Part shown: positions 23,443 through 34,258 of the stretch, one piece after another
How the letters are laid out: every line of letters starts with the position of its first letter
How positions within the stretch are numbered: the stretch's first letter is position 1
Assembly: GCA_026388315.1 (NCBI GenBank)
Contig: JAPLKA010000037.1
Span: 1 to 34,258 of the forward strand
Direction of reading: 5' to 3'
Length of the DNA: 34,258 bases
Source: Pseudomonadota bacterium
Lineage (GTDB): Bacteria; Desulfobacterota; Syntrophorhabdia; Syntrophorhabdales; Syntrophorhabdaceae
Translations under genes and position numbers: made by a program
The notes under the pieces: generated by a model
Databases searched by the model: none
What the model saw: the letters and a program-made list of their open reading frames with translations, nothing else
Told to the model about the DNA's origin: nothing

Positions 23443-23835
23443 ATGCCATCTTCAATAACATCTTTCGAAGATTTGTACGTATATAGCCTTGCAAGAGAAT
23501 TTAACAAAAATATAAGCAAATTGATAAAGATGTTGCCTGATAGCGAAAAATATAATTTAAAAAGCCAGATGAGTCGGGCAAAACTCAGCATTACAAATAA
23601 TATAGCAGAGGGTTTTGGCAGATATCACTATCAGGAAAATATACAGTTTTGTAGGCAATCGAGAGGATCGATTTGTGAACTGATAGACGATTTTAATGAA
23701 TGTTTCGATGAAGGTTATATTGATAAGAATCTACTTGATACGTATAAAAAAGAAGGATATTCTCTGATTAAGGTGCTTAATAGTTACATTGCTTCCCAGA
23801 AGAAACAAAAAAAGATTATTCAAGATTCTAAATGA
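23443..23835 (+). CDS. Four-helix-bundle protein, S23/bAvd family
   Basis: A protein of 130 residues. The family signature is clear: LYVYSLAREFNKNI in helix 1, LKSQMSRAKLSITNNIAEGFGR at the helix 2 end, a following FCRQSRGSICELIDD, and a basic last helix. The S23 family was named from proteins encoded in intervening sequences of 23S rRNA genes and is related to Avd of diversity-generating retroelements. No rRNA or reverse transcriptase is nearby. The gene is bounded by octamer arrays in opposite orientation, so a transcript could fold with this frame in the loop. No Shine-Dalgarno is seen; the array itself (GTAATTAACAG) occupies that place. Its job in a capsule locus is unknown. Confidence 0.85.
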   Translation: MPSSITSFEDLYVYSLAREFNKNISKLIKMLPDSEKYNLKSQMSRAKLSITNNIAEGFGRYHYQENIQFCRQSRGSICELIDDFNECFDEGYIDKNLLDTYKKEGYSLIKVLNSYIASQKKQKKIIQDSK

Positions 23836-27661: not shown

Positions 27662-29377
27662 ATGGCTGGGATTATTAAAAAATATTCACTCAAAGATGTT
27701 TTGCAATTCCTGGTAGTTGTGTTGATTGGCTATCTAACAGCCAAAGCATTATTCAACATTATGGCGGAAGGAACGTTGGGAAGTATTTTTCGAAATATGA
27801 TGCCCGTATTTCCTTGTCTATTTATCCTATTGATACTAAACGCTTTCGATATAAGAAGGGCTTCGTTCCGCGAAATCAGTCAGAGTGTTTTCTCTATCTT
27901 TATCTTTGATCAAAAACTGATTTCGAAACGCTCGATTTTACTTCTTATACCTGTGATGATAGCAGGCATATTTTTCACACTATACTCAATCGAATTTAGT
28001 ATCATAAATATGCTTTCATTTTTCGCATTGTTATATGTATTTTTCCTGTCAGTTCGCTATATATTATTGAGTGAAAAGAAATTTTATGGCGTGCTGATTT
28101 ATATTCTGGCGATACCATTATTGTCTTTTATACAATGGGAAAACGTAAAATATCATTGGCTTGATTTAATCATTAACGATATCTATATATCTTACAACGC
28201 TATCGGTCTTGTCATTATTTTCATCTGTTTTCTTTTTGGAAACAGGGGCAGTGCTATGCTATCCCGAAAGGAAAAGAATTTTATTAAACTATGTGCGCTG
28301 TTTGTACTTGTACCATTAACCTATATCTTACTTTCCAAAGACCCAATGCATAGTATCGTATATTACTGTATGGATTTGCTTCTGCCGTTCATATTTTTCA
28401 TTATCCTCATGATATCAATGAAGAATGAAAATGATGTAATAAAATTATTATTTTCAATAGTTATTTGTATAACAATTCACCAATTGCTTGCTCTTTATTT
28501 TTTGTTTCAGAAGGAAGGGTTGGCAAGCGTAACTGGAGGACTTTACGGAGCGGAAGAATCGAATTTTAGCCCTGCCTTGTGTCTCATCCTAATTCCGGTT
28601 CATATAGCCTTGATGCGTAGATTAAGCGGTTGGAAACGAAATTCCTTTTTTTGTGCTTTGATATTTTTAATCATATTTCTTATTTTAAGTAATTGGCGAA
28701 CAGGTTTTTTTGCCCTTTTGTTCGGATTATTTGAATACTTTCTTTTTTTTCGGGCCAATATGATTAAAAAATCGTACTTTATACTCTCCGGATCTTTTTT
28801 AACTATATTAATAACACTGATAATTGTTGAATATTTTTATGAAATTGCTTTCATCCATAGGGCGTTACAGACATTTGTCCAGATAGCCTCAGGTGAAGGA
28901 TGGGATACAATCTTAACTCAAAGAGCATCAATCTGGAGTGCCGCATTCAACATGATTGCTGATTTCCCTTTTTTTGGCATCGGGCCGGACATGTGGTCTC
29001 AATATATACCCGAATACGCCCGATCATCTTATTTCTATAGGGACATATTAGGAAACCTTGTCAGATATTATGAACACGACCCGCATAATCTTTATTTATT
29101 GGTTTATCTAAACTACGGCATGTTAGGTTTCTTATTTTATATTCTCATATTATACAGGACTTTCAGAACCGGCCTTTCAAGCATGGCAAAAAGCATGTCA
29201 GGTTCTGAGAGAAATATTGCGGAGGCTTTGATAATATCTTTGTCAATGTGGGCGGTTTCAGGGCTTTTTACCATGAGATTCTTTAGTAACTCAGACATTT
29301 TGTTTGCACTTCTTTTCTGGTCTATCGTTGCTGCCATACTGAAACTTCATATACAATCAGATTATAAGACTGCATGA
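27662..29377 (+). CDS. O-antigen polymerase/ligase-like polytopic membrane protein
   Basis: A protein of 571 residues with about 12-14 hydrophobic helices. The Wzy_C-type region has NWRTGFFALLFG, then a large periplasmic loop with RASIWSAAFNMIADFPFFGI, GPDMWSQY and DPHNLYLLVYLNYG, the pattern shared by O-antigen ligases and Wzy polymerases. It most likely polymerises or transfers the lipid-linked glycan on the periplasmic face. Polymerase versus ligase cannot be decided here. The ATG has only a weak ribosome-binding site; the gene overlaps the next start by 4 bases (ATGA). Codon use is more AT-rich than the flanking genes, which is usual for Wzy. Confidence 0.8.
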   Translation: MAGIIKKYSLKDVLQFLVVVLIGYLTAKALFNIMAEGTLGSIFRNMMPVFPCLFILLILNAFDIRRASFREISQSVFSIFIFDQKLISKRSILLLIPVMIAGIFFTLYSIEFSIINMLSFFALLYVFFLSVRYILLSEKKFYGVLIYILAIPLLSFIQWENVKYHWLDLIINDIYISYNAIGLVIIFICFLFGNRGSAMLSRKEKNFIKLCALFVLVPLTYILLSKDPMHSIVYYCMDLLLPFIFFIILMISMKNENDVIKLLFSIVICITIHQLLALYFLFQKEGLASVTGGLYGAEESNFSPALCLILIPVHIALMRRLSGWKRNSFFCALIFLIIFLILSNWRTGFFALLFGLFEYFLFFRANMIKKSYFILSGSFLTILITLIIVEYFYEIAFIHRALQTFVQIASGEGWDTILTQRASIWSAAFNMIADFPFFGIGPDMWSQYIPEYARSSYFYRDILGNLVRYYEHDPHNLYLLVYLNYGMLGFLFYILILYRTFRTGLSSMAKSMSGSERNIAEALIISLSMWAVSGLFTMRFFSNSDILFALLFWSIVAAILKLHIQSDYKTA

Positions 29378-30153
29378 TGTTTTTTAAGAACCTCTATAAC
29401 TACAGGGAACTGCTGCTGCAATTGGCTGCAAGGCAGATAAAAACACGGTATAAGCAGTCGGTATTGGGTATTCTTTGGGCAATTCTGAACCCACTTTTCA
29501 TGATGGTTATATTTACTGTTATATTTTCGTACTTCATAAAAATCCCGAGCGATGGTATTCCTTACCCGCTGTTTTCATTCTGTGCCCTGATCTCATGGCA
29601 ATTCTTTTCAGGCGCGGTCTCGTCAGCAACTTCAAGTCTTGTCGGTAATTCAAGCCTTGTTCAGCAGATCTATTTTCCCAGAGAGATATTTCCCGTTACC
29701 TCGATTATCGCCTCATTTGTAGATTTTCTGATAGCTTCCTCCATTTTCGTACTCCTGTTGGTCTTCTACAAGGTTCATATAACCCCATATGCATTTATTG
29801 CAATTTTACTGATTATACTTCAATGCTTCTTAATAGCGGGTATTTCATTCCTCGGCTCAGCATTGAATGTATTTTATAGAGATGTAGGTTTTGCACTCAA
29901 CTTTCTCCTCCAGATATGGATGTATGCAACACCTGTTATCTACCCGCTCAGCGTCGTTCCTGAAAAACTGCTCCCTTTCTATTTAATGAATCCCATGGTG
30001 GGCATCATAGACGGCTATAGAAGGGTCATAATTCAGGGTATCCCGCCAAACTGGAACTATATGGGCATATCAGCAATCGTCACGCTCATTGTCCTCTTTT
30101 TTTCTTACTGGTATTTCAAAAAAATGGAGTCCAAATTCGCAGATGTGATTTAA
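29374..30153 (+). CDS. ABC-2 type polysaccharide export permease (Wzm type)
   Basis: A protein of 259 residues with six membrane helices. The N-terminal LLLQLAARQIKTRYKQSVLG and the core PREIFPVTSIIASFVDFLIA, NVFYRDVGFALNFLLQIWMY, ATPVIYP and LNPM-like YLMNPMVGIIDGYR are hallmarks of Wzm/KpsM-like permeases. It pairs with the Wzt-like ATPase encoded at 30668 to move finished glycan or lipid-linked chains across the inner membrane. Its start overlaps the polymerase stop. Between permease and ATPase a second S23-type gene interrupts an otherwise standard pair. Confidence 0.9.
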   Translation: MMFFKNLYNYRELLLQLAARQIKTRYKQSVLGILWAILNPLFMMVIFTVIFSYFIKIPSDGIPYPLFSFCALISWQFFSGAVSSATSSLVGNSSLVQQIYFPREIFPVTSIIASFVDFLIASSIFVLLLVFYKVHITPYAFIAILLIILQCFLIAGISFLGSALNVFYRDVGFALNFLLQIWMYATPVIYPLSVVPEKLLPFYLMNPMVGIIDGYRRVIIQGIPPNWNYMGISAIVTLIVLFFSYWYFKKMESKFADVI

Positions 30154-30216: not shown

Positions 30217-30570
30217 GTGGATAAAGCCGAGCTCGAAACAAGAACGAAATATTTTGCAATCAGAATCATTCAATTTGTGACTGGGTTACCTAAGAGCAAG
30301 GTTACAGACGTAGTAGGATATCAATTGTTAAAGTCGGGAACATCAATTGGGGCAAACTACCGCGAAGCTAATCGAGCAGTATCGCGTCCAGATTTTGTGA
30401 ACAAGATTGGAATAGTTGAAAAAGAAGCTGCAGAAACTCAATATTGGCTGGAATTATGCGAGAAAGCTACAGTTGGTAATTCCTCTGACCGGCAATGGCT
30501 TCTCAATGAGGCGACCGAACTTCTTGCCATATTTTCCTCTATCGGTAAAACCAGCAAGAAACGTCGATGA
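30217..30570 (+). CDS. Four-helix-bundle protein, S23/bAvd family (second copy)
   Basis: A protein of 117 residues starting at GTG 30217. Helix pattern and signature fit the S23/TIGR02436 family: YFAIRIIQFVTGLPKSK, QLLKSGTSIGANYREANRAV, then FVNKIGIVEKEAAETQYWLE and LLNEATELLAIFSSI. It belongs to a different branch from the copy at 23443 (GANYREA instead of AEGFGR), so it is not a recent duplication. It interrupts the permease-ATPase pair and is surrounded by AT-rich short repeats in inverted orientation, as the first copy is by octamers. No Shine-Dalgarno is visible. Function unknown. Confidence 0.85.
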   Translation: MDKAELETRTKYFAIRIIQFVTGLPKSKVTDVVGYQLLKSGTSIGANYREANRAVSRPDFVNKIGIVEKEAAETQYWLELCEKATVGNSSDRQWLLNEATELLAIFSSIGKTSKKRR

Positions 30571-30667: not shown

Positions 30668-31972
30668 ATGTCCGACATCGTCATCCAATTCAAAAACGTC
30701 TCCAAATCCTACAACATCCGTCAGCGCGGGTACGGCTCTCTCCGCGAAGAGATATCCCGTTCCCTCAAGTCCCTTCTCTCTGGGAGACATGCAATTCAAA
30801 ATTCAAAATTCAAAATTCAAAACTGCAGTACAAGTAGTCCCAGCAGTATCCTCTGGGCCTTAAAGGACGTCTCGTTTTCTGTAAAAAGAGGTGAAGCCGT
30901 TGGTATAATTGGCGCCAACGGTTCAGGAAAAACAACCACATTACGCCTATTGTCCAGGGTGACTGCCCCGACAGAAGGCAGTATAGATATCTTAGGCAGG
31001 GTTGCCCCGCTCATCCAGGTTGGCGCCGGTTTCCATCCGGAACTTACCGGGAGGGAAAATGTGTATCTGAATGCGACTATAATGGGGCTTGCCAAAAAAG
31101 ATATTGATAAGAAATACGATGACATTGTCTCATTTGCCGAATTGGATGGCTTCATGGATACGCCGGTAAAAAGATATTCCTCCGGTATGTATGTCAGGCT
31201 GGGATTTGCGGTAGTAGCAAATATTGATCCCGATATTTTTCTGATTGATGAAATATTGTCAGTCGGTGATTTGAATTTTCAGAGAAAATGTCTCGATACG
31301 ATGGGCAGGATTCGTAAAAGCAACAAAAGTATTGTTTTTGTCTCTCATAATATTTCCGCAGTGCGAGGGTTGTGCGACAGGGTAATCTGGTTAAACAAAG
31401 GCGTTATTGAGCAGGAAGGTGATCCGGATGATGTAATAAATGCATACGTATCGTATATGACCTCAAAATCAACTTTTATCAACGATACATCATACGTGGG
31501 CGGAAAAACCCGGTGGGGAACCGGGGAGGTACGATTTACAGCCGTAGAAGTGTTGAATTCAGAAGGCGTCAGGTCAAATAGATTCCAACCCGGAGATAAA
31601 ATAGTAGTGAAGTTGGAATATGAAGCTGATAAGAAAATATATTCACCTACTTTCTGGGTGGGTTTAATGAATAAGGATGAGATAAAGGTGTTCGGCACAT
31701 ATTATAATAAAAACAGGGTTGGCGAATACTCTATCGATAACAGAGGGTCGTTAAGCTGCGTGATAGATTCTCTCCCGATGCGCCCGGGTGTTTATTATGT
31801 CATGGCAGGAATATATGGAGAATTTGGAGACCTTGCTATTGACAGAATTGGGAGAGCGGCAGAGTTTGAAATTGAACCTATGAATGGAAATGATTATGAC
31901 AATTACAATGGCTATGGAGCAGACGGCGCTGTAAATTTGTCACATCAGTGGAACAACTTTGATAACATCTAA
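30668..31972 (+). CDS. ABC polysaccharide exporter ATPase (Wzt type)
   Basis: A protein of 434 residues. The ATPase domain has Walker A GANGSGKTT (K88), Q-loop region RVAPLIQVGAGFHPELTGRE, signature YSSGMYVRL (near 170-178), Walker B FLIDEIL (D194, E195) and the H-loop FVSHN. Residues about 255-434 form a Wzt-type C-terminal beta-sandwich that recognises the modified chain end (VKLEYEADKKIYSPTFWVG, GVYYVMAGIYG). Residues 42-51 (AIQNSKFKIQN) are encoded by four AATTCAA heptamers between the first strand and DVSFSVKRGEAVG, where relatives have a shorter loop. It works with the permease at 29374. Confidence 0.9.
   Translation: MSDIVIQFKNVSKSYNIRQRGYGSLREEISRSLKSLLSGRHAIQNSKFKIQNCSTSSPSSILWALKDVSFSVKRGEAVGIIGANGSGKTTTLRLLSRVTAPTEGSIDILGRVAPLIQVGAGFHPELTGRENVYLNATIMGLAKKDIDKKYDDIVSFAELDGFMDTPVKRYSSGMYVRLGFAVVANIDPDIFLIDEILSVGDLNFQRKCLDTMGRIRKSNKSIVFVSHNISAVRGLCDRVIWLNKGVIEQEGDPDDVINAYVSYMTSKSTFINDTSYVGGKTRWGTGEVRFTAVEVLNSEGVRSNRFQPGDKIVVKLEYEADKKIYSPTFWVGLMNKDEIKVFGTYYNKNRVGEYSIDNRGSLSCVIDSLPMRPGVYYVMAGIYGEFGDLAIDRIGRAAEFEIEPMNGNDYDNYNGYGADGAVNLSHQWNNFDNI
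30793..30820. repeat. Four perfect AATTCAA heptamers inside the Wzt-like gene
   Basis: Four identical units cover exactly 28 bases in the coding region, in frame with the rest of the protein. The same heptamer motif is known from short tandem repeats of some cyanobacterial genomes. Confidence 0.9.
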
Positions 31973-32173
31973 AACTCGCCAATTATTCGTGTTATCGCTG
32001 TTATTACGATGAGATATGATTTCTTAGCCTCACCGGTTTCTAAAAAGACATCACACAAAATCAAACACTTATATAGGCATTGGCCAGTTTTAGTTTAAAG
32101 ATTAAGAATATTGTCGGTCGTGCAACGTGCGATGGATTATGGGATAATCAAATGGATAGGGGGTAGAATTAAA

Positions 32174-32938
32174 GTGATCCCACAGAATTTTGTACTTTTG
32201 GCAGCTGGTCGGGGCAGTCGCTTAGCACAGCTCACTACCCAGACGCATAAGGCCTTGTTGCCGATAGCGGGGAAGCCTGCATTGCAATATCTTCTGGATC
32301 ATCTGATGATTTTGAAAAAACATGATATTGTTGTTGTCACCGGTTATCGAAGTGATGATATTAATTTATTCCTAAAAGCTAAGTATGGAAATGCAATTAA
32401 AACGGTATTCAACCAGCGTTATGAGTCAGATACTAACATCCTTTCAGTAGATTTAGGTATCGATGCTTTGCTGTGCCGTGATGCAGGTTACATGATTATT
32501 GAAACCGATATCATCCTTGAACCGGCAGGTTGGCAATGTTTGATAGGACCACGACAATCCTCAATATCAGAATGGGCAACAATTGGGAAATATAGTACGA
32601 ATTTAACTGGTGCGGCTTTGAAAACTGACGAAACTGGCCGAGTTACAGATATTGTTTATGCACCAAAGTACGACAAACAATTCGATGGCTGGAAAAAATT
32701 GCTCGGAACCCTTTATGTTGGAGCAAACGAAGTAGCCTTGGATATCGCGGTGCGGAAAGAAGCGATACAGCGTTCAATTGCACAATTCTACTTGATGCCG
32801 TGGATAGAAAATATTAATAAGTTTCCCTGCCAAGAGCTCGATTTGAGTAACTATTATGCGGCTTCGTTTAACGATATTGAAGCGTATAAAAAAGCAGATA
32901 AAGGATATGAACGGGCTGTTCAAAGAGAAAAGGAGTAA
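32174..32938 (+). CDS. LicC/PntC-like nucleotidyltransferase
   Basis: A protein of 254 residues from the GTG at 32174, ten bases after AGGGGG. Longer in-frame starts (ATG 32132, TTG 32111) have no ribosome-binding site, and the family begins just before the nucleotide loop. LLAAGRGSRLAQLT with THKALLP (K26) binds the NTP; VVTGYRSDDI and NQRYESDTNILSVDLGID correspond to the TNNIxSL motif of LicC/PntC-type enzymes. These transfer CMP (or another nucleotide) to phosphocholine, phosphonates or similar small phosphates. The next gene follows at 4 bases. Substrate unknown. Confidence 0.75.
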   Translation: MIPQNFVLLAAGRGSRLAQLTTQTHKALLPIAGKPALQYLLDHLMILKKHDIVVVTGYRSDDINLFLKAKYGNAIKTVFNQRYESDTNILSVDLGIDALLCRDAGYMIIETDIILEPAGWQCLIGPRQSSISEWATIGKYSTNLTGAALKTDETGRVTDIVYAPKYDKQFDGWKKLLGTLYVGANEVALDIAVRKEAIQRSIAQFYLMPWIENINKFPCQELDLSNYYAASFNDIEAYKKADKGYERAVQREKE

Positions 32939-32942
32939 CATC

Positions 32943-33335
32943 GTGGGTGTTCCGGTGATCGAATTGGTTGATGTGGGTAGTTTACGGCATATCGAAGGGT
33001 TTAGTCGCCGGCGTGTTGAATGGCTTAGGGAAAAGATATTGAAAGAAGAATTTTGGGTTAAACCAATCGCAATAGATGCCCATAACTTTTTGGTACTCGA
33101 TGGCCAACATCGCATGGAAGTGGCACTTGCGTTGGAGTTGAAGAAGGTTCCGGCAGTAAAATATGAGTATGCGAGAGTCGAAGTGTGGAGCCTTCGCAAA
33201 AAATACCAGTTTGACTGGCAGTTAGTTACGGAGCGAGCGCTCGTTGGGGATATTTATCCTTATAAGACGGTGAAACATCGATTCCCGGAACCGTTACCGT
33301 TATGTCAATATTCGTTGGAGGAGTTAAAAAGATGA
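32943..33335 (+). CDS. SerK/SbnI-like protein with ParB-type fold
   Basis: A protein of 130 residues. The GTG at 32943 has AAAAGGAG at 7 bases and is preferred over the ATG at 32910 inside the previous gene. The motif VLDGQHRMEVALAL (D53-R57) is the DGxHR nucleotide-binding motif of ParB-fold proteins, and VGDIYPYKTVKHRFPEPLP is the G-x-x-P-x-KTxxHxFP box of free-serine kinases (SerK, SbnI). Such enzymes phosphorylate free L-serine to O-phosphoserine. It lies between two nucleotidyltransferases and its stop overlaps the next ATG. A phospho-amino acid for nucleotide activation is therefore a reasonable inference; transcriptional regulation by this fold is an alternative. Confidence 0.65.
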   Translation: MGVPVIELVDVGSLRHIEGFSRRRVEWLREKILKEEFWVKPIAIDAHNFLVLDGQHRMEVALALELKKVPAVKYEYARVEVWSLRKKYQFDWQLVTERALVGDIYPYKTVKHRFPEPLPLCQYSLEELKR

Positions 33336-34003
33336 GAAAAGTTTCTCGTGCTATTATCCTTGCGGCTGGTCGCGGGCATCAGGTTGATGGCGTAAGTAAG
33401 ATCCTTATTAAACATCCGGTAACTGGAATGACAATCTTAGATCATGCGATATTAGCCTTTCACGGAAAGAAGATAACTGTCGTAGTTGGGTTCCGGGCAA
33501 TACAAATCATGCAGCAATATCCACAGTTGGATTATGTCATCAATCATGAATGGGCGCTTTCCAACAATGCTATGAGTCTTGGTTTGGCCTTGGACAACGA
33601 GCCATCCTATGTAATATCCGGCGACATCTTCATCGACAGTCCGTTGATTAGCGAGCTCGATGAATGTGGACCAAACATAGCGCTGACCGAGCAGCGGGAG
33701 AATCGTACATTGACGGCTATTCATTGTATTCTGCGTGAAGACAACACTGTCGCAGAAGTTTACCAAGGCGCAGTACGCGATATGAGTCATCCGGAAGCTA
33801 TTGGTCTTTTTAAAATAAGTGATGAGGCGTTGCTGAAAAATTGGAAACAGTTATGTGTTAGACACGGCAATCTTTTTGTTGCACAGACCCTTCCTTGTGA
33901 TGGAAAGCCAATTGATTCAGTGCCGGTAAAAAATCATGCCTTTGTGGAAATTAATACGCCTGCTGATTATCTGCGATTTATACAGAAGACTCGATCAAAA
34001 TGA
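33332..34003 (+). CDS. Second LicC/PntC-like nucleotidyltransferase
   Basis: A protein of 223 residues from the ATG at 33332, which overlaps the stop of the SerK-like gene (ATGA) and follows GGAGG at 11 bases. IILAAGRGHQVDGVSK (K23) is the NTP loop, VVVGFRAIQI the second strand, and NHEWALSNNAMSLGLALD the SNNxxSL motif of PntC/LicC-like cytidylyltransferases; YVISGDIFID carries the metal-binding aspartate. It is a different enzyme from the one at 32174, not a recent duplicate. Two such activities around one kinase-like gene suggest successive activation steps or two products. The next start overlaps its stop by 4 bases. Confidence 0.75.
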   Translation: MRKVSRAIILAAGRGHQVDGVSKILIKHPVTGMTILDHAILAFHGKKITVVVGFRAIQIMQQYPQLDYVINHEWALSNNAMSLGLALDNEPSYVISGDIFIDSPLISELDECGPNIALTEQRENRTLTAIHCILREDNTVAEVYQGAVRDMSHPEAIGLFKISDEALLKNWKQLCVRHGNLFVAQTLPCDGKPIDSVPVKNHAFVEINTPADYLRFIQKTRSK

Positions 34004-34258
34004 TAAGATCCTTAACCATTGGCATTCCTGTAGGTACGAAGTCACAGTCTAAAATTGAAGCTGCTTCTAAGCGAATGCTTCAGATTTCCGGCGAGTTACT
34101 TCGTGAGGTGCAATTGACACCACGGACTATTCGATATACTCTTCCACCTATTGGCATTGAAGGAGAGAACGAAGGTCTGATTCTTTCTATGATTAAGTTC
34201 GTTGACGGCTTGGCCACGGAGACTAATGTGAGGTGGTTCTGTTTACCACTAGATTTTA
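34000..34258 (+). CDS. DUF711/UPF0210-like protein, 3'-truncated by window edge
   Basis: Only the first 86 codons are present. The ATG overlaps the previous stop (ATGA). The beginning MIRSLTIGIPVG and the later VQLTPRTIRYTLPPIG with FVDGLATETNVRWF resemble the N-terminal part of DUF711/UPF0210 proteins, which are related to glycyl-radical-enzyme folds but of unknown activity. The assignment is from pattern only. It seems to belong to the same operon as the two nucleotidyltransferases. Confidence 0.45.
   Translation, partial: MIRSLTIGIPVGTKSQSKIEAASKRMLQISGELLREVQLTPRTIRYTLPPIGIEGENEGLILSMIKFVDGLATETNVRWFCLPLDF

Follow-up and report, generated by a model that had tools for sequence, protein, structure and literature searches.

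Described systems related to the locus

A CDP-threonine route has been proposed for the Type A flagellin glycan of C. difficile (PMC10714395), and the b-type flagellin glycan of P. aeruginosa PAO1 includes N,N-dimethylthreonine, with PA1091 fusing a glycosyltransferase and a phosphotransferase (PMC11833859). In both gene sets, CD0241–CD0244 and PA1088–PA1091, a LicC-like nucleotidyltransferase proposed to form the CDP-amino acid is accompanied by a methyltransferase and a TagF-like phosphotransferase (PMC10714395, PMC11833859). CDP-L-serine is also said to have been described, in C. jejuni cytidylyltransferase work that is cited in PMC10714395. Further points of comparison are the serine kinases SerK (Thermococcus) and SbnI (Staphylococcus) and the LicC and PntC enzymes of the Lic and Pnt pathways. 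SbnI makes O-phosphoserine in the context of staphyloferrin B, and the O-methyl phosphoramidate pathway of C. jejuni employs a glutamine kinase and CDP-glutamine, with the phosphate on the amide nitrogen.

The operon described here begins near the end of a 34,258-nucleotide stretch of DNA (the window) and consists of seven genes, encoding a nucleotidyltransferase (NTase1), a SerK-like protein, a second nucleotidyltransferase (NTase2), a DUF711 protein, a SAM-methyltransferase, an Asp/Glu-racemase-like protein and a PF04464 phosphotransferase-like protein. As in C. difficile and P. aeruginosa, a nucleotidyltransferase, a methyltransferase and a TagF-like phosphotransferase are found in one operon, both in the window and in a copy from Pantoea, and the fusion seen in PA1091 has a counterpart in two of the relatives described below. 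However, the amino acid in the flagellin systems is N-methyl- or N,N-dimethylthreonine and here would be serine, the phosphate is associated there with a phosphoserine-phosphatase-like protein and here with a SerK-type kinase, and DUF711, the second nucleotidyltransferase and the racemase-like protein set the cassette apart. Neither a phosphoserine-phosphatase-like protein (CD0241) nor flagellin was recognised in the gene neighbourhoods examined for the window, Pantoea and G978 copies. The combination of a kinase with CTP activation of a phospho-amino acid would recall C. jejuni phosphoramidate synthesis, but a hydroxyl rather than an amide nitrogen would be phosphorylated, the kinase belongs to another family and DUF711 is present.

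Organization of the operon

The first-pass annotation had placed four genes, joined by 4-base overlaps and a 4-base gap, between 32111 and 34258. The genes are real and tightly coupled, on the forward strand at 32174–34258, and their junctions were borne out by the frames opening at 32943, 33332 and 34000, but both ends of the span had to be moved. NTase1, a LicC/PntC-type cytidylyltransferase-like protein of 254 aa, is encoded at 32174..32938 (+). Alternative starts are possible at TTG 32111 or ATG 32132; judging from the N-termini of relatives, GTG 32174, downstream of GGGGG, is more likely to be the start than TTG 32111. The gene for the SerK-like protein (32943..33335, +; a minimal free-serine-kinase-like protein of 130 aa) begins with a GTG that is preceded by an AAGGAG ribosome site and separated by 4 bases from the NTase1 stop at 32938. 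NTase2 (33332..34003, +; 223 aa) is a divergent CTP-type nucleotidyltransferase without the GxGxR arginine, and its ATG overlaps the end of the SerK-like gene by 4 bases. The ATG of the DUF711 (PF05167) gene in turn overlaps the NTase2 end by 4 bases, and the 5' part of this gene (34000..34258, +) lies within the window.

The contig runs to 99,823 bases, of which the window covers the first 34,258, so the operon could be read past the window end. The complete DUF711 gene extends to 35277 (contig 34000–35277, 425 aa; also L080:2001–3275). It is followed directly by the SAM-methyltransferase (contig 35278–35976), then by the Asp/Glu-racemase-like gene (contig 35981–36766) and a CDP-glycerol:poly(glycerophosphate) glycerophosphotransferase-like gene (PF04464; contig 36778–38022), all beyond the window. 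The annotation had pointed to this region as a place to look for transferases, decarboxylases or phosphatases; it encodes the methyltransferase and the PF04464 phosphotransferase-like protein, and no decarboxylase of the PLP or pyruvoyl type was found in the cassette.

On the 5' side, the operon is preceded by genes for an O-antigen-ligase-like protein, a Wzm-type ABC-2 permease (29374..30153, +; PF01061, 1.1e-16) and a Wzt-type ATPase with a C-terminal glycan-binding domain (30668..31972, +; PF00005, 5.6e-20; Wzt_C, 4.3e-19), and on the 3' side it is followed by a long series of sugar genes. Two short ORFs within this polysaccharide locus (window 30217–30570 and 23443–23835) resemble four-helix-bundle proteins of the 23S rRNA intervening-sequence type.

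The cassette recurs in bacteria, an archaeon and viruses

The order NTase1–SerK–(NTase2)–DUF711–methyltransferase was found in eight loci, the window and seven others. Three of the seven are bacterial: L011, from a Thermodesulfobacteriota MAG of the same phylum as the window, L037, from Pantoea wallisii, and L126, from a second enterobacterial genome recovered by a search of the family around Pantoea. The others are L039, from a marine Euryarchaeota MAG, and the marine viral contigs L040, L119 and L120. Conservation of the order, a check that had been suggested at first pass, is thereby confirmed, and recurrence in seven other loci excludes a chance association. All seven functions are present in both enterobacterial copies, which are compact islands among unrelated genes. 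The cassette is therefore independent of Wzm/Wzt, and the earlier suggestion that the decorated glycan is the one exported by Wzm/Wzt was not upheld, as neither enterobacterial copy is part of a Wzm/Wzt locus. The gene set, which occurs in bacteria, one archaeon and viruses, looks mobile.

NTase1 and the SerK-like protein are a single fused protein in L039 and L040. NTase2 accompanies each of the four bacterial copies but is missing from the archaeal and phage ones. Identities of the other bacterial copies to the window copy were 52–66 % for SerK, 47–58 % for NTase2, 43–47 % for DUF711 and 48–57 % for the methyltransferase, which is far more diverged in the phage and archaeal copies. The cassette is rare: of 297 genomes searched in the window's phylum 2 carry it, as do 2 of 198 in the family around Pantoea, and DNA-level searches of E. 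coli genomes and plasmids did not detect it. When phage records were searched with the fused NTase1–SerK protein, the only matches were an isolated NTase in Cobetia phage Carin-5 and, in Vibrio phage Va2, an isolated SerK-like protein. An 899-aa frame in L041 (1079–3778), in which NTase1–SerK runs into portal-like protein sequence, is a probable assembly chimera and was excluded from the count of loci.

A probable minimal SerK-like kinase

Used as a single sequence, the SerK-like protein matched the SerK and SbnI models weakly (E 5e-5 and 2e-4, respectively), under the curated equivalog cut-offs. A profile of 11 small relatives found SerK at 8e-18 in two stretches, SerK residues 15–116 and 204–241, and the intervening part of SerK is therefore missing in the 130-aa protein. 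This middle domain (SerK residues from about 117 to 203) has no counterpart, and the longer proteins are about 242–254 aa. The predicted structure (pLDDT 94) superposed on Thermococcus SerK over 129 of 130 residues (rmsd 1.7–2.2 Å, Z 15–19.5) and on SbnI over 130 residues (1.8–2.0 Å, Z 14–17), compared with Z scores of up to 8.6 and about 85 aligned residues for sulfiredoxin (Srx) and ParB. A ParB/Srx-type core is thus joined to a SerK-specific C-terminal segment that is absent from ParB and Srx, and both profile and fold agree with the initial SerK-like call.

Glu18 of the window protein aligns with SerK Glu30, the residue changed to Ala or Gln in the SerK structures holding phosphoserine and AMP, and the position is invariant across the cassette set. 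The C-terminal motif K-T-x-(K/R)-H (KTTRH-like) is retained as in SerK. The DGHHR motif reads DG(Q/M)HR, the first His being replaced by Gln or Met, but DGxHR is common to all and SbnI also lacks the first His, where it has Val. The cassette proteins formed one group in the tree (support 94/86). They share the full core fold with SerK and SbnI and differ from both in their short length and in having nucleotidyltransferases as neighbours. Structure, the catalytic residue and the independent amino-acid contexts of relatives strongly support the prediction that the SerK-like protein, as modelled, is a complete minimal serine kinase, a variant working like SerK rather than a SerK equivalog.

On Rhizobiales plasmids and in Enterobacterales, small SerK relatives occur within staphyloferrin-B-like operons as neighbours of SbnA-, SbnB- and SbnH-like genes; in five of these loci (L043, L044, L045, L128 and L129) single-domain relatives apparently replace the longer SbnI. 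Single-domain relatives were also detected in 99 of 293 genomes of the archaeal phylum of L039. In glycine-cleavage operons from one family of the window's phylum (L012–L016, f9 genomes) they directly adjoin gcvH/gcvP/lipB/lpd/lipA, with an ACT-domain gene also nearby in several.

The two nucleotidyltransferases

NTase1 matched the Pfam families NTP_transferase (6.5e-9) and NTP_transf_3 (1.1e-8), and its closest solved relative is LicC (1JYK, E 4.9e-11). The signature GxG(T/S)Rx4-8PK described for LicC and PntC (PMC6697681) is complete, as GxG(S/T)R...PK, in L037, L126 and L039. The window copy has HK for PK, with His for the Pro preceding the catalytic Lys, in L011 and L040 the T/S position is occupied by K or A, and the signature is partial in L119 and L120, the phage copies departing from the GxGxR motif. 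The cassette resembles the Lic and Pnt systems in the fold and the largely retained GxG(S/T)R...K residues of NTase1 and, in one relative, in a LicD gene, but has a predicted serine kinase in place of choline kinase or PEP mutase.

NTase2 matched PF12804 at 7.7e-6, slightly under the cut-off, and a sequence search of solved proteins found no relative for it. The structures closest to its model, which is of modest quality (pLDDT 70), were CTP:inositol-1-P cytidylyltransferase, LicC and PntC; the closest solved relatives of both proteins, by sequence for NTase1 and by model for NTase2, are thus CTP users. Both had been annotated as LicC/PntC-like, but a pair of equal enzymes was not supported, NTase2 being confined to the bacterial copies and having lost the pyrophosphate-binding Arg of GxGxR in all four. 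Since this Arg is missing, NTase2 may be regulatory, or active on a different substrate.

Another small SerK relative paired with a LicC-type nucleotidyltransferase was found in an enterobacterial cluster (L127:6411–11832, G1096:C17) with genes for an MFS protein, the small SerK, a flavin monooxygenase-like protein, an NTase–PLP fusion and a formyltransferase. The PLP domain joined to this NTase is of the class I/II aminotransferase type, and the layout resembles that of the FR900098 enzymes FrbH and FrbG. Fosfoxacin, the phosphate analogue of fosmidomycin, is a natural product named in PMC9782300, and from layout only our guess is that this cluster could make it from serine phosphate.

DUF711

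The full cassette protein matched PF05167 at 4.2e-58 (197.5 bits against a curated cut-off of 25), confirming the family call made from its 5' part, and the window protein is 47 % identical to the Pantoea copy. When cassette members were compared with residues fixed in 27 ordinary members, one Cys, together with Asp-Met and Glu-Asp pairs, proved common to both groups. An extra Cys gives the cassette proteins a specific C-x-C, and there are further fixed, cassette-specific differences at positions invariant in the 27, so that the cassette proteins make up a subfamily of their own. The Streptococcus pneumoniae protein SP0239 (UPF0210/DUF711, PDB 2HA9) belongs to the same family and shares Cys325, Glu300–Asp301 and Asp330 (Pantoea numbering), but falls outside this subfamily, which has the second Cys (C-x-C) and Asn147/Arg149 in place of Cys/Lys. 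Unlike UPF0210/DUF711, the cassette proteins are without an ACT protein partner; one ordinary DUF711 gene adjoins an ACT-domain gene. A lone DUF711 protein (L114:138–1367, G026:C148) represents a third, intermediate type with GLDT for GLDM. By its fold, DUF711 is a relative of pyruvate formate-lyase and ribonucleotide reductase (PMC4390871); the open literature searched for DUF711 yielded the fold only and no function.

Putative tailoring and phosphotransfer genes

A SAM-methyltransferase with generic matches follows DUF711 in every copy, and the racemase-like gene is common to the window, Pantoea and L126 (43–44 % identity). A CDP-donor phosphotransferase-like gene was found in each of the four bacterial copies, of the PF04464 type in the window, Pantoea and L126 and of the LicD type in L011, where it follows the methyltransferase and has its nearest match, under the cut-off, in a cholinephosphotransferase model. 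In Pantoea and L126, the PF04464 domain forms a fusion with the GT25 LPS glycosyltransferase directly upstream. The match in L126 is under the curated cut-off (17.6 vs 22.1 bits), and the window protein is only 21 % identical to the Pantoea domain.

The archaeal and phage copies yielded no clear phosphotransferase. A sulfatase/alkaline-phosphatase-superfamily gene lies just 5' of the cassette in the three marine phage contigs (L040:7163–8479, L119:1675–3069 and L120:3177–4640), with a PF00884 match in the two tested. Possibly this protein is the phosphotransferase there.

Proposed pathway and alternatives

The pathway proposed here builds on gene order, protein families, folds and retained residues, which were observed directly. 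We put at roughly 0.6 the probability that the cassette makes CTP-activated serine phosphate and transfers it onto a surface glycan, all activities being predicted. The SerK-like kinase would, very probably, convert free L-serine to O-phosphoserine using ADP or ATP. NTase1 would use CTP to attach CMP to O-phosphoserine, or to a modified form of it, which would yield a donor of the CDP-serine type. The serine part might then be tailored by DUF711, the methyltransferase and the racemase-like protein, for example by N-methylation and a changed configuration, with NTase2 assisting or taking a second substrate. The PF04464 or LicD phosphotransferase would probably link the phospho-amino acid to the surface glycan as a phosphodiester. 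With no step assigned to DUF711 or the racemase-like protein, the real product could be far from plain phosphoserine. The core of the first-pass proposal, that these genes supply a nucleotide-activated phospho-amino acid with which a glycan is decorated, is well supported by the conserved order, by the minimal kinase fold and its catalytic Glu position and by the phosphotransferase-like genes of all four bacterial copies. In the open literature searched nothing was found on a phosphoserine cytidylyltransferase, CDP-serine being mentioned either incidentally or in a review on another subject, and in the O-polysaccharide literature no paper combining phosphoserine and phosphodiester was found.

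Serine could instead be the source of CDP-ethanolamine or CDP-choline, with phosphoserine decarboxylated, perhaps by DUF711, N-methylated by the methyltransferase to give phosphocholine, activated by a LicC-like NTase and moved by LicD or the TagF-like protein. LicC as closest relative of NTase1, the LicD protein of L011 and the methyltransferase found after DUF711 in all copies are consistent with this, but the cassette lacks a PLP or pyruvoyl decarboxylase, DUF711 is no known decarboxylase, the methyltransferase matches are generic and the racemase-like gene would be without a role because the intermediates are achiral. We consider this route unlikely. A slightly less likely reading takes the SerK-like protein for a nucleotide-binding regulator of the ParB/Srx fold and not for a kinase, with the NTases acting on another phospho-compound. 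ParB-fold proteins vary in nucleotide use, a SerK-like archaeal protein bound CTP (PMC12704722) and the first His of DGHHR is replaced here; against this stand the end-to-end superposition on SerK and SbnI, which includes the C-terminal segment missing in ParB and Srx, the invariant E30 position and the loss of the same His in SbnI.

It is also improbable that O-phosphoserine feeds another amino acid, such as 2,3-diaminopropionate or cysteine, that is put on a sugar as an amide while the NTases activate sugars. The locus does sit amid sugar genes and small SerK relatives do serve staphyloferrin-B-like operons, but no cassette has an SbnA- or CysK-like gene, the NTase1–SerK fusion argues for successive use of one substrate and the CDP-donor phosphotransferases would be left unexplained. 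A phosphonate (Pnt) pathway would fit the PntC-like NTase fold, but the PEP mutase motif EDKxxxxxNS is absent from all cassette loci and from the genome's only strong PF13714 match; this reading is very improbable and a CMP-phosphonate route was set aside.

Implications

If the reading of the cassette as a source of CTP-activated serine phosphate is correct, serine would join the short list of amino acids that CDP is known or proposed to carry and that are attached to glycans as phosphodiesters, 130 residues would be enough for a serine kinase, and DUF711, a widespread family with a solved structure (2HA9), would be linked to a testable reaction. More tentatively, and with rather less than even confidence, the cassette may represent an undescribed nucleotide-activated serine pathway common to bacteria, an archaeon and large marine phages, with DUF711 as a Cys-x-Cys enzyme that acts on phosphoserine or CDP-serine. 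DUF711 would then gain its first biochemical role. The marine phage cassettes suggest selection for surface decoration relevant to phage–host contact.
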